Translations under genes and position numbers: made by a program | Shown: piece after piece, positions 363-38,139 of the stretch | How the letters are laid out: the number at the start of each line of letters is the position of its first letter | How positions within the stretch are numbered: the stretch's first letter is position 1 | Virus record (IMG/VR): IMGVR_UViG_3300006917_000056 | Coordinates: 1-39,998 of that record | DNA: 39,998 nt | Direction: 5' to 3' (one strand) | From: a virus | Notes under the pieces: model-generated | Databases searched by the model: none | What the model was told of the DNA's origin: nothing | The model's input: only the letters and a program-made list of their open reading frames with translations

Positions 363-1892
363 TTGATTCTGCGTTCGTACCAGGCTGAGTCTGTAGACAC
401 CGGACTCGTGGCCGTGCATGACCGTGTTGAGGCCATGCTGGTTGGCATGTTCACTGGGGCCGGGAAGACAGTGATCTTCACGAGCCTTGCGCAGAAGGTT
501 CACCAGATCTTTGGTGGCCGCACTCTGATCGTCACTCCGCTGCGGGAGCTTGCCTGGCAGGCTGCTGACAAGGTCAGGGATGTGGCGGGCATGGACCCTG
601 GGATCGAGATGGCTGAGTACCGTGCCTCGACTGACACCTGGGAGTCTCCTGATGTCGTGGTTGCCAGCAAGCAGACGCTGCTCAGGGGCAGGTACAAGAA
701 GTTCACTGATGTCCGCCTCGTGATCGTGGACGAGGCTCACCTCCAGTACACCGAGCCCTGCCTGGAGATGCTCAGGTGGTTCAACGCCAATGGTGCCACA
801 GTCATCGGGTACACCGCCACGCCATTCCTTATGGACGGGCGGGCCATGGCGGATTACTACCAGCCCTCGGTGAACTACGACATCCAGTGGGCAATCAATG
901 AAGGCTGGGCAGTTCCTCCTGTGTGCAAGCTCGCCAAGGTTGACGGGCTTGATCTGTCTGGCGTGAAGCTGTCGATGGGGGATTTCAATCAGGCCCAACT
1001 GAATGCCGCAGTGGAGAAGGAGGCCAGCCTCCATCGCATCGCTCTCATCACGAGCAAGGAGATGAAGGGGCCGACCGTCGTGTTCACTCCCTCGGTTGCG
1101 TCGGCCAAGGGCGTGGCTCACTACCTCGCCAACAACTACGACATCAAGGCCGAGGTGGTGTGGGGCAAGCAGCCCGAGGAGGAGCGGCAGCTAGCCATCC
1201 GCAGGTTCAAGAACAACGAGTCCCAGGTGCTGGTGAACTGTGCGGTGGTCGCCGTTGGATTCGATCACCCCGCCATCCAGACCATGATCCTTGCCAGGCC
1301 AACCCGCTCTCGATCTTTCTGGCTCCAGTGCGTTGGCCGGGCAACGAGGCCTCTGGCTGGGACCGTAGACTTCGAGGGCTCGACGGCAGAGAGCAGGAGG
1401 GCTGCCATTGCCGCCAGCGAGAAGCCGCACTTCCAGATCATCGACTGCACGGACGCATCGCTGGATCACAGGCTCATCACCTCGGTAGACATGTTCGTCA
1501 CCGACAAGGACTGCGAGGTGAAGAAGGCCGTGAAGAAGGCGATGTGCGAGGGAGACAAGCCGCTCACCCAGGAAGAGATCGACGCCCTGGCCCAGGCCGA
1601 GCTTGAACGCAGAGTCATTGCCGAGGAGATCCAGAAGCGGCGAGAGGCCATGCGTGGCCGTGCCGATGGGGTTGTCTCAACCGAGGAGTTTGAGCTAGGA
1701 TCTGACGGCAAGAGGACAGTTGGTACATACCGCAATCCGCTCCGTGGCAAGTACGGCGGCGTGAGAATGTGCGACCTTCCTCCATGGTATCTGAAGTGGG
1801 GTGCCGACAACCCCAGCCTGAAGCATTGGATTCGTGCCACCTACAGAAAGGAGATTGACCGTCGTGCCAAACAAAGACGGGCTTTTGCCTGA
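363..1892 (+). CDS. superfamily 2 DEAH-box helicase
   Basis: A 509-aa ATP-dependent nucleic-acid translocase of the RAD25/SSL2-like SF2 type common in phages, probably used in replication or recombination. Visible motifs are an N-terminal LRSYQ, Walker A TGAGKT (31-36), DEAH (123-126), YTATP motif III (150-154), a second RecA-like domain with the VVFTPS strand, and motif VI QCVGRATRP (322-330). The C-terminal 150 residues are charged and of unknown role. The start is TTG at 363, 5 nt after AAGGAGG. No nearer ATG has as good a ribosome site. It is the first large gene of the plus-strand block. No primase or polymerase is next to it. Confidence 0.9.
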   Translation: MILRSYQAESVDTGLVAVHDRVEAMLVGMFTGAGKTVIFTSLAQKVHQIFGGRTLIVTPLRELAWQAADKVRDVAGMDPGIEMAEYRASTDTWESPDVVVASKQTLLRGRYKKFTDVRLVIVDEAHLQYTEPCLEMLRWFNANGATVIGYTATPFLMDGRAMADYYQPSVNYDIQWAINEGWAVPPVCKLAKVDGLDLSGVKLSMGDFNQAQLNAAVEKEASLHRIALITSKEMKGPTVVFTPSVASAKGVAHYLANNYDIKAEVVWGKQPEEERQLAIRRFKNNESQVLVNCAVVAVGFDHPAIQTMILARPTRSRSFWLQCVGRATRPLAGTVDFEGSTAESRRAAIAASEKPHFQIIDCTDASLDHRLITSVDMFVTDKDCEVKKAVKKAMCEGDKPLTQEEIDALAQAELERRVIAEEIQKRREAMRGRADGVVSTEEFELGSDGKRTVGTYRNPLRGKYGGVRMCDLPPWYLKWGADNPSLKHWIRATYRKEIDRRAKQRRAFA

Positions 1893-2187
1893 GACGATTG
1901 AGTTGATTACCGAGACGTTCGATGTCTCGCATGCGTTCCCTGTTACCTACCTACCCGTTGAGAGAAAGAAGAATGGATTCTTCCACCGACTGTGGCTTCG
2001 TCTTGCGGCATGCCTTGGCCTACGCTCACGACATCTTGAGGATGGTCGTGGTGAACAAGGTGACGGCGATAGTGTGCGCCAGGAAGTTGGGGCTGGACCC
2101 GGACCAAGTGCTGGGGGTTGCACACTTGCTGTCCAAATTGGGGCTGGTGCCTTCAAGGGAGAGGCTGGCTCTGGTGGCGATGCGTGA
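1864..2187 (+). CDS. possible overlapping hypothetical ORF or 5' part of the next gene
   Basis: The GTG at 1864 lies 10 nt after AAAGGAG and inside the helicase tail. The first 45 residues (PNKDGLLPETIELITETFDV...) look protein-like. From about 1995 the frame becomes Gly/Arg-rich and reads as a shadow of the gene at 1973, which is in the +1 frame. Either this is a short real gene with a spurious tail, or a frameshift splits one longer gene across the two frames. I cannot decide from sequence alone. Confidence 0.35.
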   Translation: MPNKDGLLPETIELITETFDVSHAFPVTYLPVERKKNGFFHRLWLRLAACLGLRSRHLEDGRGEQGDGDSVRQEVGAGPGPSAGGCTLAVQIGAGAFKGEAGSGGDA

Positions 2188-2500
2188 CCCAGGACTGGAC
2201 GACTCCGACATCGCAGAGATCTTCTCGGAGGATGAGTCCTGGGCTGCTGCGGTGAGGGCTGACGCCGCCCGCATCAAGGCAGAGGAGCCAATCGACTGGA
2301 GACTTGAGACGCTGAGGGGGTACTACTACCTAGAGGATCTTCCGCCAGACGAGTTGTACAGGGAGGCCGAGGCTGTGCGTAGTAAGCGTGTGCAGCCGAG
2401 GTTCAATGGCACGATGTGGGATCTCGTGAGGCTACGGGCGTTCTCGTGGAATGGCAGGAAGGGCGCTTTCCAGTCACTTTGTTTCCCGGATGTTGTATGA
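1973..2500 (+). CDS. hypothetical protein (175 aa)
   Basis: No family is recognised. Residues from about 24 (a KVTAIVCARKLGLDPDQVLG stretch) have helix-turn-helix-like spacing. The middle is acidic and the end is aromatic (W, F). The start is uncertain: ATG 1973 follows a purine-rich GAGAGAAAGAAGA, ATG 1922 is upstream and ATG 2042 is downstream. The stop overlaps the start of the next small gene as ATGA. See the entry at 1864 for a possible frameshifted N-terminus. Confidence 0.65.
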   Translation: MDSSTDCGFVLRHALAYAHDILRMVVVNKVTAIVCARKLGLDPDQVLGVAHLLSKLGLVPSRERLALVAMRDPGLDDSDIAEIFSEDESWAAAVRADAARIKAEEPIDWRLETLRGYYYLEDLPPDELYREAEAVRSKRVQPRFNGTMWDLVRLRAFSWNGRKGAFQSLCFPDVV

Positions 2501-2580
2501 ACCGCGACGACTTCATTGAGTTCATGATTGCCATTGCTGTGTCCGCACTCGCCATAGCCTTTGCTTCTATGGAGTGGTGA
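2497..2580 (+). CDS. 27-aa membrane microprotein
   Basis: The ATG is coupled to the upstream stop by a 4-nt ATGA overlap. The product starts MNRDDFIEF and is then almost entirely hydrophobic (MIAIAVSALAIAFA), one transmembrane helix, ending in MEW. The next gene starts 2 nt after its stop. A similar 21-aa protein lies on the minus strand at 8565. The function is unknown. It could be a holin-like or regulatory membrane peptide. Confidence 0.5.
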   Translation: MNRDDFIEFMIAIAVSALAIAFASMEW

Positions 2581-2581
2581 C

Positions 2582-2941
2582 ATGGCCAAGTCTGGCACTC
2601 GTGTTGGTGACATGTACGAGAGTCTGCTCTCGGCGTTCACTGGACTAGGGGGGGATCGGCGGGCCTGTCCGTTCGACGCCCCCGGCTACGAGTACGATGG
2701 TCCGGAGATCTCATGGCTAGGAACAAAGCCAGCGATGGCAGCAGATCTACCCTCTCTGCGTTTGCTCTGGAGTTCACGCGATGCGCGGCCTGCTGGGAAA
2801 CCCAGTGCTGGAAAGGAATGCACATCCACCATCTTGTCGGAGGAGCCGGGCGAAAGCACGACCGTCGTAACCTGCTCAGGCTATGCGGCAACTGTCATGA
2901 CTGTCTCCACCAGGGGCCGCCAGCCGGTCAGCCCGACCTGA
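2582..2941 (+). CDS. hypothetical protein overlapping HNH gene
   Basis: The ATG at 2582 directly follows the stop of the membrane microprotein. The first 45 residues (MAKSGTRVGDMYESLLSAF...) look plausible. After position 2713 the frame runs under the HNH gene and becomes Ser/Arg-rich. Gene boundaries are doubtful. Either the real product is mostly the N-terminal part with an incidental tail, or a frameshift once joined it to the HNH gene. Confidence 0.35.
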   Translation: MAKSGTRVGDMYESLLSAFTGLGGDRRACPFDAPGYEYDGPEISWLGTKPAMAADLPSLRLLWSSRDARPAGKPSAGKECTSTILSEEPGESTTVVTCSGYAATVMTVSTRGRQPVSPT

Positions 2942-22745: not shown

Positions 22746-23001
22746 CCACAAAGCCTTGATCGCAGAGATTGCATCTCGTTCTGCTGCTTCCCCAACATGT
22801 GCATTGCCGTGGTATCGCAGGCACTACGCGGCTCACGGGGAGACGATCAAGGCGATCCACGACGCCTGGCATGCAGGGGAGCTTGGAGATAGACCGACGA
22901 CAACGTCGCGGATTATCTCAGAAAAACTGGCGTCACTTGGGATCAAGGTCGGCACTGACGGAGTCCGAAGATGGCTAAACAAAAATCCCGGTCAGTGGTG
23001 A
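22729..23001 (+). CDS. small DNA-binding-like protein (90 aa)
   Basis: Basic, with two helical parts: PWYRRHYAAHGETIKAIHDA and ISEKLASLGIKVGTDGVRRW, the latter like a helix-turn-helix with a DNA-recognition helix. It could be a small DNA-binding or terminase-small-like protein. AAGGAGGGTTC precedes the ATG. It overlaps genes on both sides. Confidence 0.5.
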   Translation: MSKKADHKALIAEIASRSAASPTCALPWYRRHYAAHGETIKAIHDAWHAGELGDRPTTTSRIISEKLASLGIKVGTDGVRRWLNKNPGQW

Positions 23002-24077
23002 GCGAGATTGCAGCCGGTGTTGGTGCAGAAGCGAAGCTCAAAACCGACGCCGAGATTGCAAGGCTCAAGGCAGATCTTCTGGAGTACAAGGGCAAGTACG
23101 CCTTTGCTCTCAAGGAGATAGAGAGGCAGAAGGCAAGAGCGGACAACAAGGCGGCGATTAGGGGAGTCGATCCTGCAAAGCCAGTCAACATCGTCAGCAA
23201 AGCCAAGAAGCGGACAAGGAAGCATTCAGCAAGTGCATTGCTCATGCTTTCCGATGTCCATTGCGAAGAGAGGGTCAGGCCTGAGACGGTCAACGGCGCG
23301 AACGACTACTCGCTCGACGTTTGTGATCAACGCATGCAGGAGGTTGAGGAGCGATTCCTTGGCAGCCTTGATCACGAGCGGAATCTGGTAGACATCGACC
23401 GCGTCGTGGTGTGGCTCGGCGGGGATTTCATCACGGGACACATCCACGAGGAACTCACCGAGGTGTGCCAGCTATCCCCAACGAACGCAACGCGGTGGGT
23501 GCAAGCCCGCATTCGCAGGATGCTCAACCGCATCTCTCCGCAGGCGGCCGAGATAGTCGTCATCACGAACGCCGGGAACCACGGGAGAGATACCCCAAAG
23601 CAGAGGATCGCCACCGAGCTTGAGCATTCGTACGAGCAGTTGATGTACCACACAATGGCCGAGGCCGAGCCGTGCAAGAATGTGCATTGGAAGATTGCCG
23701 AGGGGCATCTTGGCTATCTCGACCTCGACGGGTTCAGGATTCGCCACACCCACGGACATTCGATCAAGTACAACGGCGGCGTCATGGGAGTGGCCCTGCC
23801 GGCCGCCAAGGCAATAGCTGCATGGGACGCCCTGGACGGCCCGAGCGACATCACGATCTTTGGACACTATCACAGTTTTTCTTGGCTAAAGGGGGCTCGG
23901 CAAATCTCGAACGGGAGCGTGATTGGGGTGTCTCCGTATGTGAAGTTCATCAAGGCTCCCCCGACAAGCCCGTGCCAGGGGTTTGCCGTGATTGATCACG
24001 AAAGAAACGAAGTCACGCGAGCCTACCCTATTTTTTGCGACAGGGATCTCCGACGCCGCGCGGGGGCCGTTTCGTGA
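22971..24077 (+). CDS. calcineurin-like metallophosphoesterase
   Basis: 368 aa. Residues 1-70 are a charged coiled coil. The metallophosphoesterase core follows, with all metal motifs: LSDVHCEE (Asp95, His97), WLGGDF (Asp152), NAGNHGR (Asn203, His204), HTHGHS (His261, His263) and FGHYHS (His299, His301). This is the Mre11/SbcD-like family found in many phages, probably a nuclease or phosphodiesterase in DNA processing. Its last 26 residues (from HERNEVTRAYP) are duplicated at the end of the next gene, which has inserted at this 3' end. Confidence 0.88.
   Translation: MAKQKSRSVVSEIAAGVGAEAKLKTDAEIARLKADLLEYKGKYAFALKEIERQKARADNKAAIRGVDPAKPVNIVSKAKKRTRKHSASALLMLSDVHCEERVRPETVNGANDYSLDVCDQRMQEVEERFLGSLDHERNLVDIDRVVVWLGGDFITGHIHEELTEVCQLSPTNATRWVQARIRRMLNRISPQAAEIVVITNAGNHGRDTPKQRIATELEHSYEQLMYHTMAEAEPCKNVHWKIAEGHLGYLDLDGFRIRHTHGHSIKYNGGVMGVALPAAKAIAAWDALDGPSDITIFGHYHSFSWLKGARQISNGSVIGVSPYVKFIKAPPTSPCQGFAVIDHERNEVTRAYPIFCDRDLRRRAGAVS
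23997..24052 (+). repeat. 56-bp tail repeat, copy A
   Basis: Encodes HERNEVTRAYPIFCDRDL at the end of the phosphoesterase. It matches 24605-24660 at 43 of 56 bases. All but one change (I/L) are synonymous. Confidence 0.9.
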
Positions 24078-24676
24078 GTCGCGCACTACAGCCTGGGGAT
24101 GTCGTAAACGGAAGGCAGATTTTGAGTCGCGTCTCGCCTTCAGGGAGCGACCACGCGCGGTACTTGTCTAGGTGCCTTTCTTGCGGGGCTGTGGTTGAGT
24201 GTTTTGGGTATAGGCTCAAGAGGAGCAAGTGTCGGGGCTGCCGCAAGCCACCAGACTGTGGTGTTTATGCCAAATATCAGCGGGGGTGTCGCTGTGAAAA
24301 GTGCCGCGCCGCCAACTCCGAAAACGAAAAGAAGAGGAGGGCCACTCCGCACGGGCGGAGATCAGTCAGGAACTCTCAATTAAAGACCAAGTTTGGGATC
24401 GACATAAATCAGTTTGAGTCCATGTGTTCGGCCCAAGGCGGCCTGTGCGCCATCTGCGGCGAAGGCGACAAGCCGCTTTGCGTTGACCACAGCCACGACA
24501 GCGGCATGGTTCGCGGTATTCTGTGCAAGCAGTGCAACGCCGCCATTGGGCTCTTAGGCGACTCTTCGGCCTGCCTTCGTCGGGCTGCCGAGTATTTGGA
24601 AATCCACGAACGCAACGAAGTCACCAGAGCGTACCCATTGTTTTGTGACCGCGACCTCAGAAAGGCAGGAAGATGA
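24074..24676 (+). CDS. endonuclease VII-type homing endonuclease
   Basis: 200 aa from GTG 24074 overlapping the upstream TGA. The N-terminal module (3-60) carries CLSCG and CRGC, a zinc ribbon often seen in mobile endonucleases. A second basic CRCEKC part follows. The catalytic endonuclease VII/HNH core covers 108-176: FGIDINQFESM, CAICGEG, CVDHSHD (His139), GILCKQCNAAIGLL. The family normally ends near AAEYLE (176). The last 23 residues are the captured phosphoesterase tail. It probably cuts phage genomes lacking the insert and so spreads. Confidence 0.85.
   Translation: MSRALQPGDVVNGRQILSRVSPSGSDHARYLSRCLSCGAVVECFGYRLKRSKCRGCRKPPDCGVYAKYQRGCRCEKCRAANSENEKKRRATPHGRRSVRNSQLKTKFGIDINQFESMCSAQGGLCAICGEGDKPLCVDHSHDSGMVRGILCKQCNAAIGLLGDSSACLRRAAEYLEIHERNEVTRAYPLFCDRDLRKAGR
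24605..24660 (+). repeat. 56-bp tail repeat, copy B
   Basis: Encodes HERNEVTRAYPLFCDRDL, now the C-terminus of the endonuclease. Being next to the following operon gene, this is the probable original 3' end of the phosphoesterase gene. Confidence 0.9.
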
Positions 24677-25002
24677 AGAAAGCTACCCAACTCCTCGAAT
24701 CCGCAACCGACGCCATCGAAGACCGCCACGCCATCTACGACCACCCGTCCCGGCACTTTGCCAGGACAATTGGTGCGATCAACGCCATCTTCGCCCACAA
24801 GCTCCGCGAGCCCTTCGAGCCACACGACTGGCCGATCATCATGTCGCTGGACAAGTTCGCCAGAGAGCAGGGGTCCATCCATCCTGATAACCCGGTCGAT
24901 GTGGTGGGCTACATGGCTTGCAGGGCAGAAGTCATGCCCCAGCCGACAAACACCTACGAAGAGGACACTGGAGACATAGAGGGCCGAATCGTGAGGTGCT
25001 AG
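24673..25002 (+). CDS. DUF6378-like phage protein
   Basis: 109 aa. The pattern RHAIYDHPSRHFARTIGAIN, then DWPIIMSLDKFAREQG and HPDNPVDVVGYMAC matches a widespread phage family that I recall as DUF6378. The His/Asp distribution suggests a nucleotide-binding or pyrophosphohydrolase-like helical fold, unproven. The ATG overlaps the endonuclease stop (ATGA). Confidence 0.7.
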   Translation: MKKATQLLESATDAIEDRHAIYDHPSRHFARTIGAINAIFAHKLREPFEPHDWPIIMSLDKFAREQGSIHPDNPVDVVGYMACRAEVMPQPTNTYEEDTGDIEGRIVRC

Positions 25003-30583: not shown

Positions 30584-31252
30584 GTGATCGTGCTAAACGC
30601 CGAGGTTGAGGCGAATCGCCAATACCAGCGAGAATACGACGCTCGCCGCCGTGAGGAGAAAAAGCAGTATCTCCGTGAATGGAGGGCAAAGAGAGACGCA
30701 GACCCAGAAAGGAGGGCGGCTCACCTTGAGTATCACAGGAGGCGTCAGTTAAGGACGGCTTCTGATGAACGCGCCGCCGAATCTCTCCGAGAGGCAAACA
30801 GAAGGAGCTACCGAAAAAACAAAAAGCGAAGGATTTCCGCAACTGCGGAGTATAAGAGACGAAGGTCTAAGTCCGACGCCAAGTTCAATCTGCTGCTCAG
30901 GCTCCGCGCCCGTGCTTCCAAGATACTGAAGGCAGACGGACTGCCTGCGAGGTCTTGTGCAGGCCTTTTTGGGTGCAGTAGGGATCACCTGTTTAGTCAC
31001 ATAGAGTCCCAGTTCACAGACGGCATGAATTGGGAGAATCGTCGGCTTTGGCATATAGATCACATATACCCCGTCTCAAGAATCGACGTGACCAGTGAGC
31101 TAGATATTTCTGCTGCGTTTAACTGGAGAAACCTTCGCCCCATGTGGGCTGCGGATAATCTGCGAAAAAACGCCAAGGTGACGCCTGAGTCTGCTGACGC
31201 ATTCGAGTCGATTAAAAAAATTCTCTCTACCCCCGAGGAGACTGTTTCGTGA
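30584..31252 (+). CDS. free-standing HNH endonuclease
   Basis: 222 aa from GTG 30584 after GGAGGATGCAAA. Residues 10-100 are extremely basic coiled helices (DNA binding). The HNH core is at 147-197: GMNWENRRLWHIDHIYPVSR (HIDH 157-160), FNWRNLRPMWAADNLRKNAK. Its AA/AAA-rich coding (AAAAAACAAAAAGCG) is lower in GC than flanking genes, a sign of recent transfer. It sits between virion genes with its own promoter and overlaps the next ATG by 4 nt. It is probably a mobile homing endonuclease. Confidence 0.85.
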   Translation: MIVLNAEVEANRQYQREYDARRREEKKQYLREWRAKRDADPERRAAHLEYHRRRQLRTASDERAAESLREANRRSYRKNKKRRISATAEYKRRRSKSDAKFNLLLRLRARASKILKADGLPARSCAGLFGCSRDHLFSHIESQFTDGMNWENRRLWHIDHIYPVSRIDVTSELDISAAFNWRNLRPMWAADNLRKNAKVTPESADAFESIKKILSTPEETVS

Positions 31253-32685: not shown

Positions 32686-33322
32686 GGCATGCTCTCTCTG
32701 TCGCAAGACGAAGCCTCTTGACGAGAAGCACTACCACGCCAACGTCAATGCCCCGGACGGATTCCGCTCGGAGTGTCGTGAGTGCCGAAAGCTCAGTCGT
32801 GCCGAAAGGCAGAGGAAGCGAAGGGAAGCAAAGCTAGAGGAAGTAGAGAAAGGTGCCGTAGACATCTTTGTCGGTGCCGCGCGAGTAGGGGGCGGGAACA
32901 TACCCCACTCCCGAGAACTGCTCGAAGTGATGATGGAGTACTTCGGCGGGGTTCGCGGGTACATGAACGTGTTCATGAAGAACCTGTACGACTCGCCAAG
33001 CGGGGGCTCCCACAGGACGAAGATGCTCCTCTCGGTTATGGGCCTGGTGACGGCCAACACATCAATGGGCGGTGCCGTGAAGCCGCTGGAGGCGATGACC
33101 GAGGAAGAGCTTGAGAGCGAGTACCGTCGCCGGATCATGCTCGAAGCTGCCCAGATGGCGAAGCAGATGAATGTGAACGGCGAGCCAGTGAAGATGATCA
33201 AGTCTGACGATCCGGATGCGATAGCCCTTCCGGATCCAGCAGAGTTCGAGGTTGTGAAGCGTGGCAAGAAAGAAGAAACATCCTCCGGTTCCGCCGCCGC
33301 AGATCCCGACTCCGACTCCTGA
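32669..33322 (+). CDS. probable terminase small subunit with N-terminal zinc ribbon
   Basis: 217 aa. Starts MSEKSKACSLCRKTKPLDEK, with CSLC and CREC pairs as a zinc ribbon of the kind seen in phage DNA-binding proteins. A basic linker (RAERQRKRREAKLEE) and a helical domain follow, with an acidic disordered end. It lies immediately upstream of and overlaps the large terminase by 62 nt, the standard place for the small subunit. The assignment is mainly by position. Confidence 0.5.
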   Translation: MSEKSKACSLCRKTKPLDEKHYHANVNAPDGFRSECRECRKLSRAERQRKRREAKLEEVEKGAVDIFVGAARVGGGNIPHSRELLEVMMEYFGGVRGYMNVFMKNLYDSPSGGSHRTKMLLSVMGLVTANTSMGGAVKPLEAMTEEELESEYRRRIMLEAAQMAKQMNVNGEPVKMIKSDDPDAIALPDPAEFEVVKRGKKEETSSGSAAADPDSDS

Positions 33323-35822
33323 ACTGGGCTTGTCCCAACACCAGCGAGGCGAGCTTCGTGATCTCCAGGCCGAGATCCTCCTGCGCCGCATGGAGGCTCT
33401 CAAGCTCTATGAGCCACAGCCAAAGCAGGACGAGTTCCATGCCTGCATGTCCAGCGAACGCCTGGCAATAGGCGGGAACCGTTGCCTTGGGGGCGACCAG
33501 GAAATCTATGACCCAGTCGCCAAGCGGTACGAAAAGGTCAAGGACATCAAGGCGAACTTCCACGTCCTGTCGTCAAAGAACGGGGAGGTCGTGGTTCGGC
33601 GGGCGTGCAGGCCGTTCGTGAAAGGGATTGGGGACATCTATCGCGTCCACCTCACGAGCGGATCGTCGTTTCTGTCTACGCTTGAGCATCGCGTTCACAC
33701 TTCGGAAGGCTGGGCTTCCGTTTTCGACGCCCACCGAGAAGGATCTTTTCTCTGCCCTCCGGTGTCCACTTCGGGCATTTCCCCTTCAGCGTTGCGGCGA
33801 GGTGCTTGCCGTTCGACTCAAAAAGCTCAAGGTTGTCTGGATGATTATTCCCGCGATCATCGTCAATGTGATGAACAACCTCTCCAGGGAGAAGGTATCG
33901 CCCTAACTTCTGCTCCATCACGAGTCGATGCTCCCGAACATACCCACGCACGTTCGCACGAGGATGCTCTGGTCGGAACCGAAGGATATAGCCCGACTTG
34001 TCTACCGTCACTCCTCCCCGCCACGCATGTGCCAGCGGCCCACTCCTCGGCCCCCTCTTTCTCATCTTCACGCCAGCCCGCTTGCACGCCTTGTTCGCTA
34101 CCTTCCCGGAAACTCCAAGCCTTTTCCCGACAGCCTCAACACTCAGCCCCTCATCCTCATACAGCCTCTTCAGAAGCTCAACATCCCACAGAACTGGATT
34201 GCGTTTCTTCGGCACTGCAAGAACCTCCATTGGTGGAAAAGCTACAGATTACCGCCCTTGAGCTAATCGGTCAACAGGAAATCTGGGACTTCACCGTAGA
34301 GGAGACTGAGTGCTACTTCGCTGGCGGTGTTCTCCATCACAACAGCGGCAAATCTGTGGTTGGTGGCGTTGAGGTTGCCCGCGCTGCCACCGGCCAAGAC
34401 CCGTATGAGAAGTACCCGAAAGAGAACCTCATCATCGCGGTGATTGGCAAGGACTGGAGGCACATCGGCCTGGTCTGCTACCCGATGTTGTTCAAGTGCG
34501 GTGCGATCAAGATGATCCGCGACGAGGTAACGAATGAATGGAGGGCATATCGCCCGAAGACGGACGCCCGCCGCTCAAGGGAGGCCAAGCCAGCCCAGCC
34601 TCTGATTCCGAATCGATTTGTAAAGCCCAAGGGCAAGTCCTGGCTCAATCGACGCCAGGGGTACATCCAGAAGGTTGAACTCATCAACGGCACGGTGATC
34701 CACTTCTTCTCATCGGAAGGCGATCCTCCGCAGGGCTTCCAAGCTGACCTTATTTGGATCGATGAAGACGTGAACGATGAGCGATGGGTGGGTGAAATGC
34801 AGGCCCGCCTCGCAGACCGCAAGGGGCGGTTCATCTGGTCTGCCATGCCGCACTCCGAGAACGACGCCCTCATTGGCCTGAAGGACCGGGCTATCGCCGC
34901 CGAGGAAAATGGCGACCCGAATCCGATCATTAAGATGTTCATCCTTCGCCACCTCGACAACCCGTACATCGACGACGAGGAGAAGAAAAAGAACATCGAG
35001 CGGTGGAGTGCCATCAGCCAAGACGAGTTGATGAAGCGAGCCGAGGGTGAGTTCATGACGGGCTCGACCCTCATGTACCCCACGTTCAATCGCTCTGTCC
35101 ATGTGATCCCGAGATCGACGTTCGAGAACGGAAACATCCCTGACGACTGGACCCGGTACTGCTCTACAGACCCAGGCTGGTCGGTGGCCACTACGTTGTT
35201 CTTTGCCGTCCCGCCCGACGAGAGCTACGTTCTGTTCTACGACGAGATCTACATCCGGAACTGCAATGCGGAGATCTGGGGCGAGGCGTTCCTGGGCAAG
35301 GCTCTCGGCAAGTCGATCTACGCTGGCATCTTCGACATGCACGGCGGTCGCCTGAGAGACATCGGCGGCGGCAGGCTGCCCCATGAGCTTTACTCTGAGC
35401 AGCTAAAGAAGGGTGGGTTCTCTTTCCGGTTTGGCGGCACGACCTTCATCCCTGGTTGCGATGACCCGAAGACGCGGGCCAACATGGTTCGCGAGAAGCT
35501 GCACATCCGGCCGGACGGCACGACCAAGCTGAAGGTGCTTGAGGGATCTTGCCCGAATCTCCTCGAAGAACTCAAGCGTTACCGCAAGAAAACCACTCGC
35601 GTAAACGGCATGGTCTATGTGACAGACGAGCCCCAGACGAGGGGTGATGTCCACGCCTGCCAGGCTCTCGAATACGCCATCGCCTACGAACCGAAGTATC
35701 ACCAGCCTCCACGGACTTCAGGCCCGAAGCCGTGGTGGAAGTCATGGATGGAGAAGCGTGAAGCCCGGAATCGGGAGCTTCAAGATCCGTGCATTTTGCT
35801 TGGGCCTGCCAGGAGGAAGTGA
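33261..35822 (+). CDS. terminase large subunit precursor interrupted by an intein
   Basis: 853-aa precursor; 566 aa after intein removal. GTG start at 33261. The ATPase Walker A is split: GGNR (71-74) | intein 75-361 | SGKS (362-365). The Walker B region is ADLIWIDEDV. The nuclease domain has CSTDPGWS, a central FDMHGG and a late TRGDVHACQALEYA, each giving an acidic metal ligand. It powers DNA packaging through the portal and cuts the concatemer. Without splicing the P-loop is destroyed, so packaging depends on the intein. The stop overlaps the next ATG. Confidence 0.92.
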   Translation: MARKKKHPPVPPPQIPTPTPELGLSQHQRGELRDLQAEILLRRMEALKLYEPQPKQDEFHACMSSERLAIGGNRCLGGDQEIYDPVAKRYEKVKDIKANFHVLSSKNGEVVVRRACRPFVKGIGDIYRVHLTSGSSFLSTLEHRVHTSEGWASVFDAHREGSFLCPPVSTSGISPSALRRGACRSTQKAQGCLDDYSRDHRQCDEQPLQGEGIALTSAPSRVDAPEHTHARSHEDALVGTEGYSPTCLPSLLPATHVPAAHSSAPSFSSSRQPACTPCSLPSRKLQAFSRQPQHSAPHPHTASSEAQHPTELDCVSSALQEPPLVEKLQITALELIGQQEIWDFTVEETECYFAGGVLHHNSGKSVVGGVEVARAATGQDPYEKYPKENLIIAVIGKDWRHIGLVCYPMLFKCGAIKMIRDEVTNEWRAYRPKTDARRSREAKPAQPLIPNRFVKPKGKSWLNRRQGYIQKVELINGTVIHFFSSEGDPPQGFQADLIWIDEDVNDERWVGEMQARLADRKGRFIWSAMPHSENDALIGLKDRAIAAEENGDPNPIIKMFILRHLDNPYIDDEEKKKNIERWSAISQDELMKRAEGEFMTGSTLMYPTFNRSVHVIPRSTFENGNIPDDWTRYCSTDPGWSVATTLFFAVPPDESYVLFYDEIYIRNCNAEIWGEAFLGKALGKSIYAGIFDMHGGRLRDIGGGRLPHELYSEQLKKGGFSFRFGGTTFIPGCDDPKTRANMVREKLHIRPDGTTKLKVLEGSCPNLLEELKRYRKKTTRVNGMVYVTDEPQTRGDVHACQALEYAIAYEPKYHQPPRTSGPKPWWKSWMEKREARNRELQDPCILLGPARRK
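33483..34343 (+). other. intein in terminase Walker A
   Basis: 287 residues. Block A: CLGGDQEIYDP with Cys1. Block B: TLEHRVHTSEGW with T..H (Thr140, His143 of the precursor). Blocks F/G: IWDFTVEETECYFAGGVLHH then N, with the +1 residue Ser362. The first ~78 and last ~35 residues form a normal splicing domain. The ~170 residues between are Ser/Pro/His/Gln-rich and match no endonuclease. That stretch is antisense to an HNH gene. It probably splices autocatalytically to rebuild GGNRSGKS. Confidence 0.93.
33676..34215 (-). CDS. antisense HNH homing endonuclease nested in the intein
   Basis: 179 aa, entirely within the intein on the opposite strand. GTG 34215 lies 8 nt after GGAGG. ATG 34230 is an in-frame alternative without a site. 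Residues about 10-50 form a helix-turn-helix (DVELLKRLYEDEGLSVEAVG...). Residues 59-140 are a typical phage HNH_3 domain: LAHAWRGGVTVDKSGYILRF, REHRLVMEQKLGRYLLPGE, VVHHIDDD (His115-116), NHPDNLELF (Asn128), GKH (His138). The tail is basic. The stop codon falls on the codon of block B Thr140. Its promoter is not evident. Confidence 0.9.
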   Translation of the reverse strand: MPKKRNPVLWDVELLKRLYEDEGLSVEAVGKRLGVSGKVANKACKRAGVKMRKRGPRSGPLAHAWRGGVTVDKSGYILRFRPEHPRANVRGYVREHRLVMEQKLGRYLLPGEVVHHIDDDRGNNHPDNLELFESNGKHLAATLKGKCPKWTPEGREKILLGGRRKRKPSLPKCERDAQA

Positions 35823-36153: not shown

Positions 36154-38139
36154 ATGGAACGAGACTTTCCCCTCAAGCCGATTTGTGCCCGCTGGCTCGA
36201 CTGCATCAAGAAGGCAGAAGAGTACAAGAAGGCCTTCACTCAAGACGCTGCCGAAGCGATGATGTTCTTCAGCAGTGACAGTGACGCGGTGTGGGGGGAG
36301 ATTGCCAAGAACAAGTTTGCGAAGGGTGTCGGCCTGCCGACGTTCCGCATGGTGGTCAACCGCCTGTGGGAAGCCGTTCGCATCTTTGCCGCCGTGATTC
36401 ACCACAGAAACCCCAACAGGGTAGCTACGCCCAAGCAGCTTCCCTCGATTCTCCCGCAGCAGTTGGGGATTGTTGACCAGCCGGTTCCTCAAATGGGGCC
36501 GGATGGTCAACCTGTGGTGGGTCCGGACGGCCAGATGGTCATGATGCCATCTCCTGAGATGATGGAGTACCACCAGATGGCCGGGCATCAGCAGATGCTC
36601 ATGGATCATCGCACTCTGGTTTCCTCGCTCTTGGAGATGTACCTGAACTACACCCCGAACGAACTGAATCTCCAGTACCAGTCCAGGCAGGTGGTGGAGG
36701 AGGCGTTCATCAAGGGGGCTGGTGTGTGGTGGCATGAGCTTTACGCCCCGCCAGGAAGCTCTACCAGGATGGTCGGCAGCTTCTTCGATACCATCGACAA
36801 TCTTGTCTGGGATCCTGATGCAGACAAGTTTGACGACATCCGCTGGGCAGCCCGTAAGCGTATCCGTCCGATTGACGACGTGGCCTCTGAGTTTGGGCTC
36901 GACCGAGAGTGGCTCAAAGGCCATGCGGAAAGCTATTCTTCCCAGGCCGACTCAAAGCGTCCAGATTACAAGTACCGGAAATCCCGAGGGCAGACGAACG
37001 ATCTCCTTGAATACTGGGAGATCTATTCCAAGACGGGCTTCGGGGACCGGCTCAAAGACGTGGATGAGCGCTTCCGTGGCGCGTTCGATTCCCTCGGTCA
37101 GAACTGCTATATCGTCGTCGCTAAGGGAATTGATTTTCCGCTGAACATCCATCCCGATCTTCTCAAGCAAGAGGTTGGTGAGGGTCAGGTTCCAGACGAT
37201 CTCTTCATGGCGGCTCAATGGCCAGTGCCATTCTGGGTGGAGCCGAACGGCTGGCCGTTCACGCCGCTCATGTGGCATGGCAAGCCAAACTATACCTGGC
37301 CGCTGACTGTCGTGTCGGCTGGCATGGGCGAATTGCGGTTCATCAACTGGGCCATGTCCTACCTGATGGGGCGAATCCAGAAGACGGCAGACACGATCAT
37401 CGGAGTGGCGAAGGGTGCCGAGGAGTCCCTGAAGGCCCAGATCACCGCCCCGTCCGAGGGTGGCCTCAAGGTCGTGGAAATCAGCCAGGCACTGAATATG
37501 CCGCTGAACCAGTTGATCCAGGTCTTCGAGCAGCCGCAGGTTTCCCAGGAGATGTTCCGGATCATTGCCGAAGTGACGGCTATGTTCGACCGCCGGGTTG
37601 GGCTGACCGAGCTTATCTACGGCATGACCTCGGCATCGATGCGGAGTGCTACCGAGAGCCAGGTCAAGATGGATCAAGTGTCCATCCGGCCGGACGACTA
37701 CGCCAACATCCTCGAAACCGCCATGTCGGAGTGTGCCCGCAAGGAAGCCCTCATGGCTCGGTGGGCTCTGGAGCCGCAGGACGTTGAGCCGATCCTCGGG
37801 CCGCTTGGGGCTCGGGCCTGGGCCATGCATGTCAAGAGTGCCGACGTGGAGTCGGTGGCTCGGGAATACAGCTACCGGGTCGAGGCCGGGTCCACCAGGA
37901 AGCCTAATTCCGCGACCCGCCTGGAAACGATCAACAACGCCATGCAGATCCTCATGCCGGTGGCTCAAGGGCTCATGCAGGCAGGGCAGCCTCAGTTGTT
38001 CAACGCCCTCATGGCCGACTGGGGCAAGGCCATGGAGATCGATGTCTCCAAATACGTCATCCCCCCACCTCCGCCCCCGCCCCCGGAACAGGCTGGGCCG
38101 CCGCCCGCAGAGCCACCTCCACCCCCGGAAGGACAATAG
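36154..38139 (+). CDS. portal protein
   Basis: 661 aa, the usual size for a portal, directly after the terminase. The N-terminal half has helices and a Gly/Met/Pro insertion (PQMGPDGQPVVGPDGQMVMM). The middle (about 385-480) has GELRFINWAMSYLMGRIQKT, AEVTAMFDRRVGLTELIYGM, SASMRSATESQVKMDQVSIR, a layout typical of the portal stem and crown. It ends in a poly-Pro tail. It forms the dodecameric DNA gate of the head. There is no RBS stronger than AAAGGGACAATAG. Confidence 0.8.
   Translation: MERDFPLKPICARWLDCIKKAEEYKKAFTQDAAEAMMFFSSDSDAVWGEIAKNKFAKGVGLPTFRMVVNRLWEAVRIFAAVIHHRNPNRVATPKQLPSILPQQLGIVDQPVPQMGPDGQPVVGPDGQMVMMPSPEMMEYHQMAGHQQMLMDHRTLVSSLLEMYLNYTPNELNLQYQSRQVVEEAFIKGAGVWWHELYAPPGSSTRMVGSFFDTIDNLVWDPDADKFDDIRWAARKRIRPIDDVASEFGLDREWLKGHAESYSSQADSKRPDYKYRKSRGQTNDLLEYWEIYSKTGFGDRLKDVDERFRGAFDSLGQNCYIVVAKGIDFPLNIHPDLLKQEVGEGQVPDDLFMAAQWPVPFWVEPNGWPFTPLMWHGKPNYTWPLTVVSAGMGELRFINWAMSYLMGRIQKTADTIIGVAKGAEESLKAQITAPSEGGLKVVEISQALNMPLNQLIQVFEQPQVSQEMFRIIAEVTAMFDRRVGLTELIYGMTSASMRSATESQVKMDQVSIRPDDYANILETAMSECARKEALMARWALEPQDVEPILGPLGARAWAMHVKSADVESVAREYSYRVEAGSTRKPNSATRLETINNAMQILMPVAQGLMQAGQPQLFNALMADWGKAMEIDVSKYVIPPPPPPPPEQAGPPPAEPPPPPEGQ

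Follow-up and report, generated by a model that had tools for sequence, protein, structure and literature searches.

The window, which is the whole stretch of 39,998 nucleotides analysed here (positions 1 to 39,998 of IMG/VR virus record IMGVR_UViG_3300006917_000056), contains a gene for a calcineurin-like phosphoesterase, followed by a gene for an endonuclease of the endonuclease VII (EndoVII) family and a gene with a DUF6378 domain (Table 1). The phosphoesterase was assigned to PHROG 284 ('exonuclease') and also gave a weak match to Metallophos_2. The endonuclease most likely starts at a GTG codon overlapping the phosphoesterase stop (GTGA), and its own stop shares bases with the start codon of the following gene (ATGA). 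The listed start of this reading frame at 23997 was rejected, as it marks the beginning of a duplicated gene end (tail A, see below) and not that of the endonuclease. The four-cysteine zinc site and the DH.H and N catalytic residues of the EndoVII motif (PF02945) are all present in the protein (C125, C128, D138, H139, H141, C151, C154 and N155), and these positions are invariant or nearly so among its relatives. The family profile matches T4 EndoVII (E about 6e-12) and Hpy99I.

Table 1. Coordinates of the features discussed; positions refer to the window unless another locus is named.
Feature	Position	Strand	Remarks
Host gene, calcineurin-like phosphoesterase	22971..24077	+	phrog_284, E=2.6e-38; now ends in tail A
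Tail A	23997..24053	+	Encodes HERNEVTRAYPIFCDRDLR; followed by RRAGAVS and stop
Putative inserted element, 608 bp	23997..24604	+	Tail A and endonuclease coding sequence without its own stop
EndoVII-family endonuclease	24074..24676	+	PF02945, E=4.6e-20; phrog_2633, E=4.9e-28; C-terminus is tail B
EndoVII catalytic and zinc-binding domain	24380..24601	+	Residues 103-176, Pfam match
Tail B	24605..24661	+	Encodes HERNEVTRAYPLFCDRDLR; in-frame fusion to endonuclease; followed by KAGR, stop at 24676
Next gene, DUF6378	24673..25002	+	PF19905, E=3.9e-10; ATG overlaps the tail B stop (ATGA)
Mirror-image heads	L325:2397-2919; L114:1476-2080		

The ends of the phosphoesterase and endonuclease genes form a direct repeat with a spacing of 608 bp. 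The near-identical C-terminal peptides on which the original prediction was built were confirmed as 57-nt copies, which are identical at 44 bases, differ at 13, and encode peptides sharing 18 of 19 residues, the sole change being Ile in tail A and Leu in tail B; ten codons differ, nine of them synonymously and one nonsynonymously. The repeat is real and far beyond chance: the protein alignment score of the two copies is 106, while only about 1% of 768 pairs in a shuffled-locus null reach 55, and the second tail copy in the window record was detected by tblastn with E = 9e-9. No other duplicated gene end of this kind was found on the plus strand of the window. The longest identical run common to the two copies is 11 nt. 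The first 20 nt are identical at 18 positions and differ at two, while the remaining 37 nt are identical at 26 positions and hold 11 of the 13 differences; this 5'-to-3' gradient is suggestive, with numbers too small for a reading.

A scan of IMG/VR viral contigs yielded 80 relatives of the phosphoesterase at about 60% protein identity. The tail is present exactly once, at the end of the protein, in all 80 of them, with the sequence DHGRNEVTRAYPLFCDRDLRK or one close to it, and in none of them is the phosphoesterase gene followed by an EndoVII gene, whereas relatives of the EndoVII protein finish at about EYLExH, without the tail; the peptide is not a general domain of this endonuclease family, which was the outcome that would have spoken against the original prediction. 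With the endonuclease as the query against the phosphoesterase relatives, the sole match was the tail region, and an apparent homology of endonuclease residues 139-177 to the phosphoesterase was put down to the alignment having run by chance beyond the tail. In the structure model of the phosphoesterase, which is moderate overall (mean pLDDT 68), the tail forms the last predicted beta-strand (347-355), adjoining strand 335-342, with a block pLDDT of about 87, and the repeat begins just past residue 342. The endonuclease was modelled with confidence over its catalytic part (69-181) but poorly over the tail (residues 182-200), where the block pLDDT is about 52-57. On the basis of the relatives' ends and of both structure models, the tail is a part of the phosphoesterase, fused onto a nuclease. 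Tail A supplies the host gene with an in-frame replacement C-terminus, as mobile ORFs (mORFs) do; the reading frame is unbroken and the tail conserved, and the host protein stays intact, as had been predicted. The sole phosphoesterase relative found among genome contigs (L407, 41% identity) belongs to a Planctomycetaceae MAG, a hint that the host of the phage may be a planctomycete.

A survey of EndoVII loci, comprising three scans and 194 non-redundant units, revealed the same architecture in a portal gene. In L171 (also fetched as L159) and L180, an EndoVII gene sits at the 3' end of the portal gene and runs in frame into a second copy of the portal tail; the two elements occupy the same site. 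L171 and the element-free L172 are 96.2% identical up to the insertion and 100% identical over 746 nt after it, and the intact portal tail of L172 is exactly the tail fused to the L171 nuclease; likewise, the fused tail of L180 and the intact tail of the L198 portal agree at 120 of 122 nt. The displaced tail in the portal gene matches the tails of relatives with empty sites, as for mORFs, and, judged from sequence, the fused portal tail is shown to be the native one. The moving unit in the portal system appears to be tail A together with EndoVII, because these are more alike between L171 and L180 (92.7% and 86.4% identity, respectively) than the portal before the junction and the flanks (73-75%) and tail B (75.5%). 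On the portal protein tree, L171 groups with L172, while L178, which is the same sequence as L180 where the two overlap, lies among empty relatives. This topology appears to need at least two changes and the portal element likely moved horizontally; a single ancient gain followed by several precise losses is possible, though less simple. Altogether, the sporadic presence and empty sites that characterise free-standing homing endonucleases were found, with the EndoVII gene accompanying none of the 80 phosphoesterase relatives and the portal site being both occupied and empty at one position. By eye, the L171 and L180 portal resembles the window's own portal (36154-38139). In L171 and L172, the portal gene is immediately followed by an ORF that also looks HNH-like on inspection (L172:3400-4040), and this boundary may be a target for more than a single nuclease.

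In the window, native status of tail B is moderately favoured by its Leu, its short C-terminus and its ATGA overlap. Leu is the family residue; tail B ends in the short KAGR, like the relatives, while tail A ends in the longer RRAGAVS with a stop overlapping the endonuclease GTG; and of 64 distinct relatives, 38 have an ATGA overlap between the phosphoesterase stop and the next gene. The DNA identity between the copies (44/57) is close to the mean between tails of different phages (45/57). A raw DNA vote of distinct relative tails placed 48 nearer B and 11 nearer A, but it was rejected as proof that B is native, since it rests largely on the Ile/Leu codon and fails on its removal; without this codon, the relative clusters, only about 60% identical in protein and compared at synonymous sites, split 12 for B and 9 for A. 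With relatives this distant and synonymous sites that favour neither copy, the window DNA does not reveal which one is native. According to the original prediction, the displaced original tail is now the endonuclease C-terminus; the fusion of tail B was observed and the anatomy favours B, while its native status, directly shown only for the portal gene, would extend to the window.

Both copies also have Glu (HER) where relatives have HGR, a residue seen in 0 of the 80 relatives fetched, both use an uncommon GTC codon, and a pattern search found no other viral contig with the DHERNEVT codon pattern. Since the common Glu is absent from the relatives, the two copies would have a recent common source or tail A a closely related donor; probably tail A came from a near relative or was homogenised in part. 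The common Glu is also compatible with an internal duplication, in which this lineage came to have a copy of the phosphoesterase 3' end on either side of an intergenic endonuclease, the second becoming fused to it, with A as the native copy and B as the duplicate. The uncommon GTC codon likewise suggests shared ancestry within the lineage, and tail A remains joined to the gene body. However, the divergence between A and B equals that between distant phages, yet the B peptide is fully conserved, which is unexpected for a duplicate that does nothing for the endonuclease; B and not A has kept the family Leu and the ATGA overlap, and in the analogous portal system it is the fused copy that is native. 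We consider such a duplication unlikely.

Still less probable is that the EndoVII gene has one of the usual phage roles, as a resolvase of Holliday junctions or a packaging nuclease, and that its C-terminal tail is a functional peptide. Its family does include T4 EndoVII, as seen from the profile match, but the tail is missing from EndoVII relatives and poorly predicted in the endonuclease model, the gene is sporadically present among phosphoesterase and portal relatives, and homing endonucleases with the EndoVII motif are established (F-CphI, PMC6083498). An intron or intein, with tail B as the downstream exon or extein joined by splicing and tail A as a read-through, is hardly credible, since, although EndoVII genes do occur near psbA group I introns (e.g., L396), no intron was detected in the whole window at the gathering threshold or in 23800-24900 at a permissive threshold, no intein domain was found in the phosphoesterase protein, and tail A already completes this protein.

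We consider it highly probable that a 608-bp element, consisting of tail A and a free-standing homing endonuclease of the EndoVII family (beta-beta-alpha-metal), split the 3' end of the phosphoesterase gene, so that the protein is made whole by tail A, while the native tail, displaced as tail B, serves as the endonuclease C-terminus. An insertion of about this size, carrying its own copy of the tail, had been predicted, and it is supported by the host tail in all 80 relatives and by the portal analogue with its empty sites; the boundaries of the element were set by the direct repeat, and analogous empty sites are those known for the portal gene. In the proposed mechanism, the endonuclease would cut the uninterrupted gene at or near the junction between body and tail, and repair from a carrier would copy in tail A and EndoVII, with the gene body as the left arm and the native tail with the downstream gene as the right arm; this unit of transfer is recognisable in the portal system. 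Tail A, with the left homology arm on one side and the nuclease on the other, would always be copied together with the latter. Tail A completes the host protein, and the recipient's own tail would complete the nuclease reading frame, the displaced native tail B giving the endonuclease its C-terminus and stop, as shown for the portal gene and presumed for the window. The changed junction and the differently spelled tail should block self-cleavage, and identity between the copies (an 11-nt run) would be too low for deletion of the element by recombination between them. The destruction of the cut site by recoding, also part of the original prediction, is at the level of inference; since the last 37 nt hold all but two of the 13 differences, immunity by recoding would need recognition bases there.

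Other duplicated gene ends beside EndoVII provide what appear to be supporting cases of the element model. In L140, a lambda-type portal gene is involved, with 58 compared residues, 60% DNA identity and a displaced tail out of frame. In L396, the psbA C-terminus is duplicated over 23 residues, with EndoVII between the copies. L114 and L325 display a mirror image, in which a short fossil gene head is followed by EndoVII and then by the complete gene, whose own head has diverged. In L140, L396, L114, L325, L171 and L180, the copies have at most 14 identical nt in a row, a short stretch for homologous recombination to act on. Searching viral contigs gave no empty relative of L140, and cultured phages gave none of L396 downstream of the tail. 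The psbA gene of L396 also carries two group I introns near its 3' end (Rfam RF00028; 1726-1953 and 2070-2293, plus strand), with EndoVII and the second psbA C-terminus downstream. High survey scores were also obtained for psbA/psbD neighbours in L375, L089 and L385, which are paralogues, and for repetitive proteins in L155 and L310 together with GC-rich noise, which are of low complexity; all were rejected. We lean towards the view that these elements form a recurrent phage class, natural home-and-rescue elements in which a homing endonuclease carries a substitute tail or head of the invaded gene, some of them finishing their own frame with the victim's end.

Several further nuclease-related features were noticed. 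The large terminase ORF of the window (33261-35822, plus strand) has an intein-like insert (Intein_splicing, E=0.0016), and an intact HNH endonuclease ORF (33676-34230, minus strand; HNH_3, E=1e-10) lies antisense to the middle of this insert. It seems that the strand opposite the terminase codes for the homing nuclease of the intein, an arrangement that may be compared with the hidden out-of-frame HNH insertions described earlier (PMC11855218). In L146, a terminase (555-2933, plus strand) also has an intein-like insert, flanked on both sides by TRWxxxDLTGxVLKxE, and this terminase gene contains an EndoVII ORF (1445-2041, plus strand) in another frame. The window ORF 30584-31252 (plus strand) is HNH-like by eye (AFNWRNLRPMWAADN); it has no Pfam match, and its surroundings showed no duplicated gene end.

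The nearest precedent is provided by the fungal mitochondrial mORFs. An mORF with a foreign C-terminus is known in atp6 of Allomyces macrogynus (Paquin 1994, as described in PMC3630166), and mobile ORFs with foreign C-termini were found in atp6, atp9, cox2 and nad3 of Glomus sp. (Beaudet 2013, PMC3630166), where the inserted tails have 64-81% DNA identity to related species and nearly the same protein. As proposed for the window, an endonuclease ORF lies in the 3' end of a gene and brings a substitute C-terminus, the native tail is moved downstream, and the copies are divergent in DNA; however, the mORFs are mitochondrial and encode LAGLIDADG or GIY-YIG nucleases, while here the setting is a phage, the nuclease belongs to the EndoVII family, and the native tail would be the nuclease's own C-terminus. 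New relative to mORFs are the phage setting, another nuclease family, and a nuclease borrowing its C-terminus from the victim; the logic was already known.

Among phage systems, F-CphI of cyanophage S-PM2 is a free-standing homing endonuclease using the EndoVII motif, with proven homing (PMC6083498). It likewise lies beside a conserved phage gene, but its own genome is spared by the psbA group I intron, a role that the replacement gene end would play here. The phage homing endonucleases covered by a review lie between genes, in introns or within a host gene that they split (PMC2988022). T4 seg and mob (PMC2988022) and mobE in Aeh1 nrdA are also selfish phage nucleases acting on neighbouring genes; however, they are intergenic or split a gene into two cooperating pieces, and a substitute end is described for none of them. 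No report of duplicated gene ends in phages was found in the open-access literature searched. Synthetic home-and-rescue and Cleave-and-Rescue gene drives (PMC7968924, PMC7951863) similarly link a nuclease to a recoded target copy restoring function, but these are engineered and CRISPR-based, and the likeness is in logic only.

These data suggest that, beside introns, inteins and intergenic sites, an extra route exists by which a selfish nuclease may reside inside a phage gene at little cost, carrying the missing end with it. If the recurrent class is true, essential genes could be occupied without introns or inteins. Such elements would explain diverged duplicated gene ends beside phage nucleases, which are easily overlooked by annotation, and would offer natural examples of the rescue logic of engineered gene drives. 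Phage EndoVII genes become testable as homing elements, and the occupied and empty portal pairs make specificity and self-immunity directly testable.
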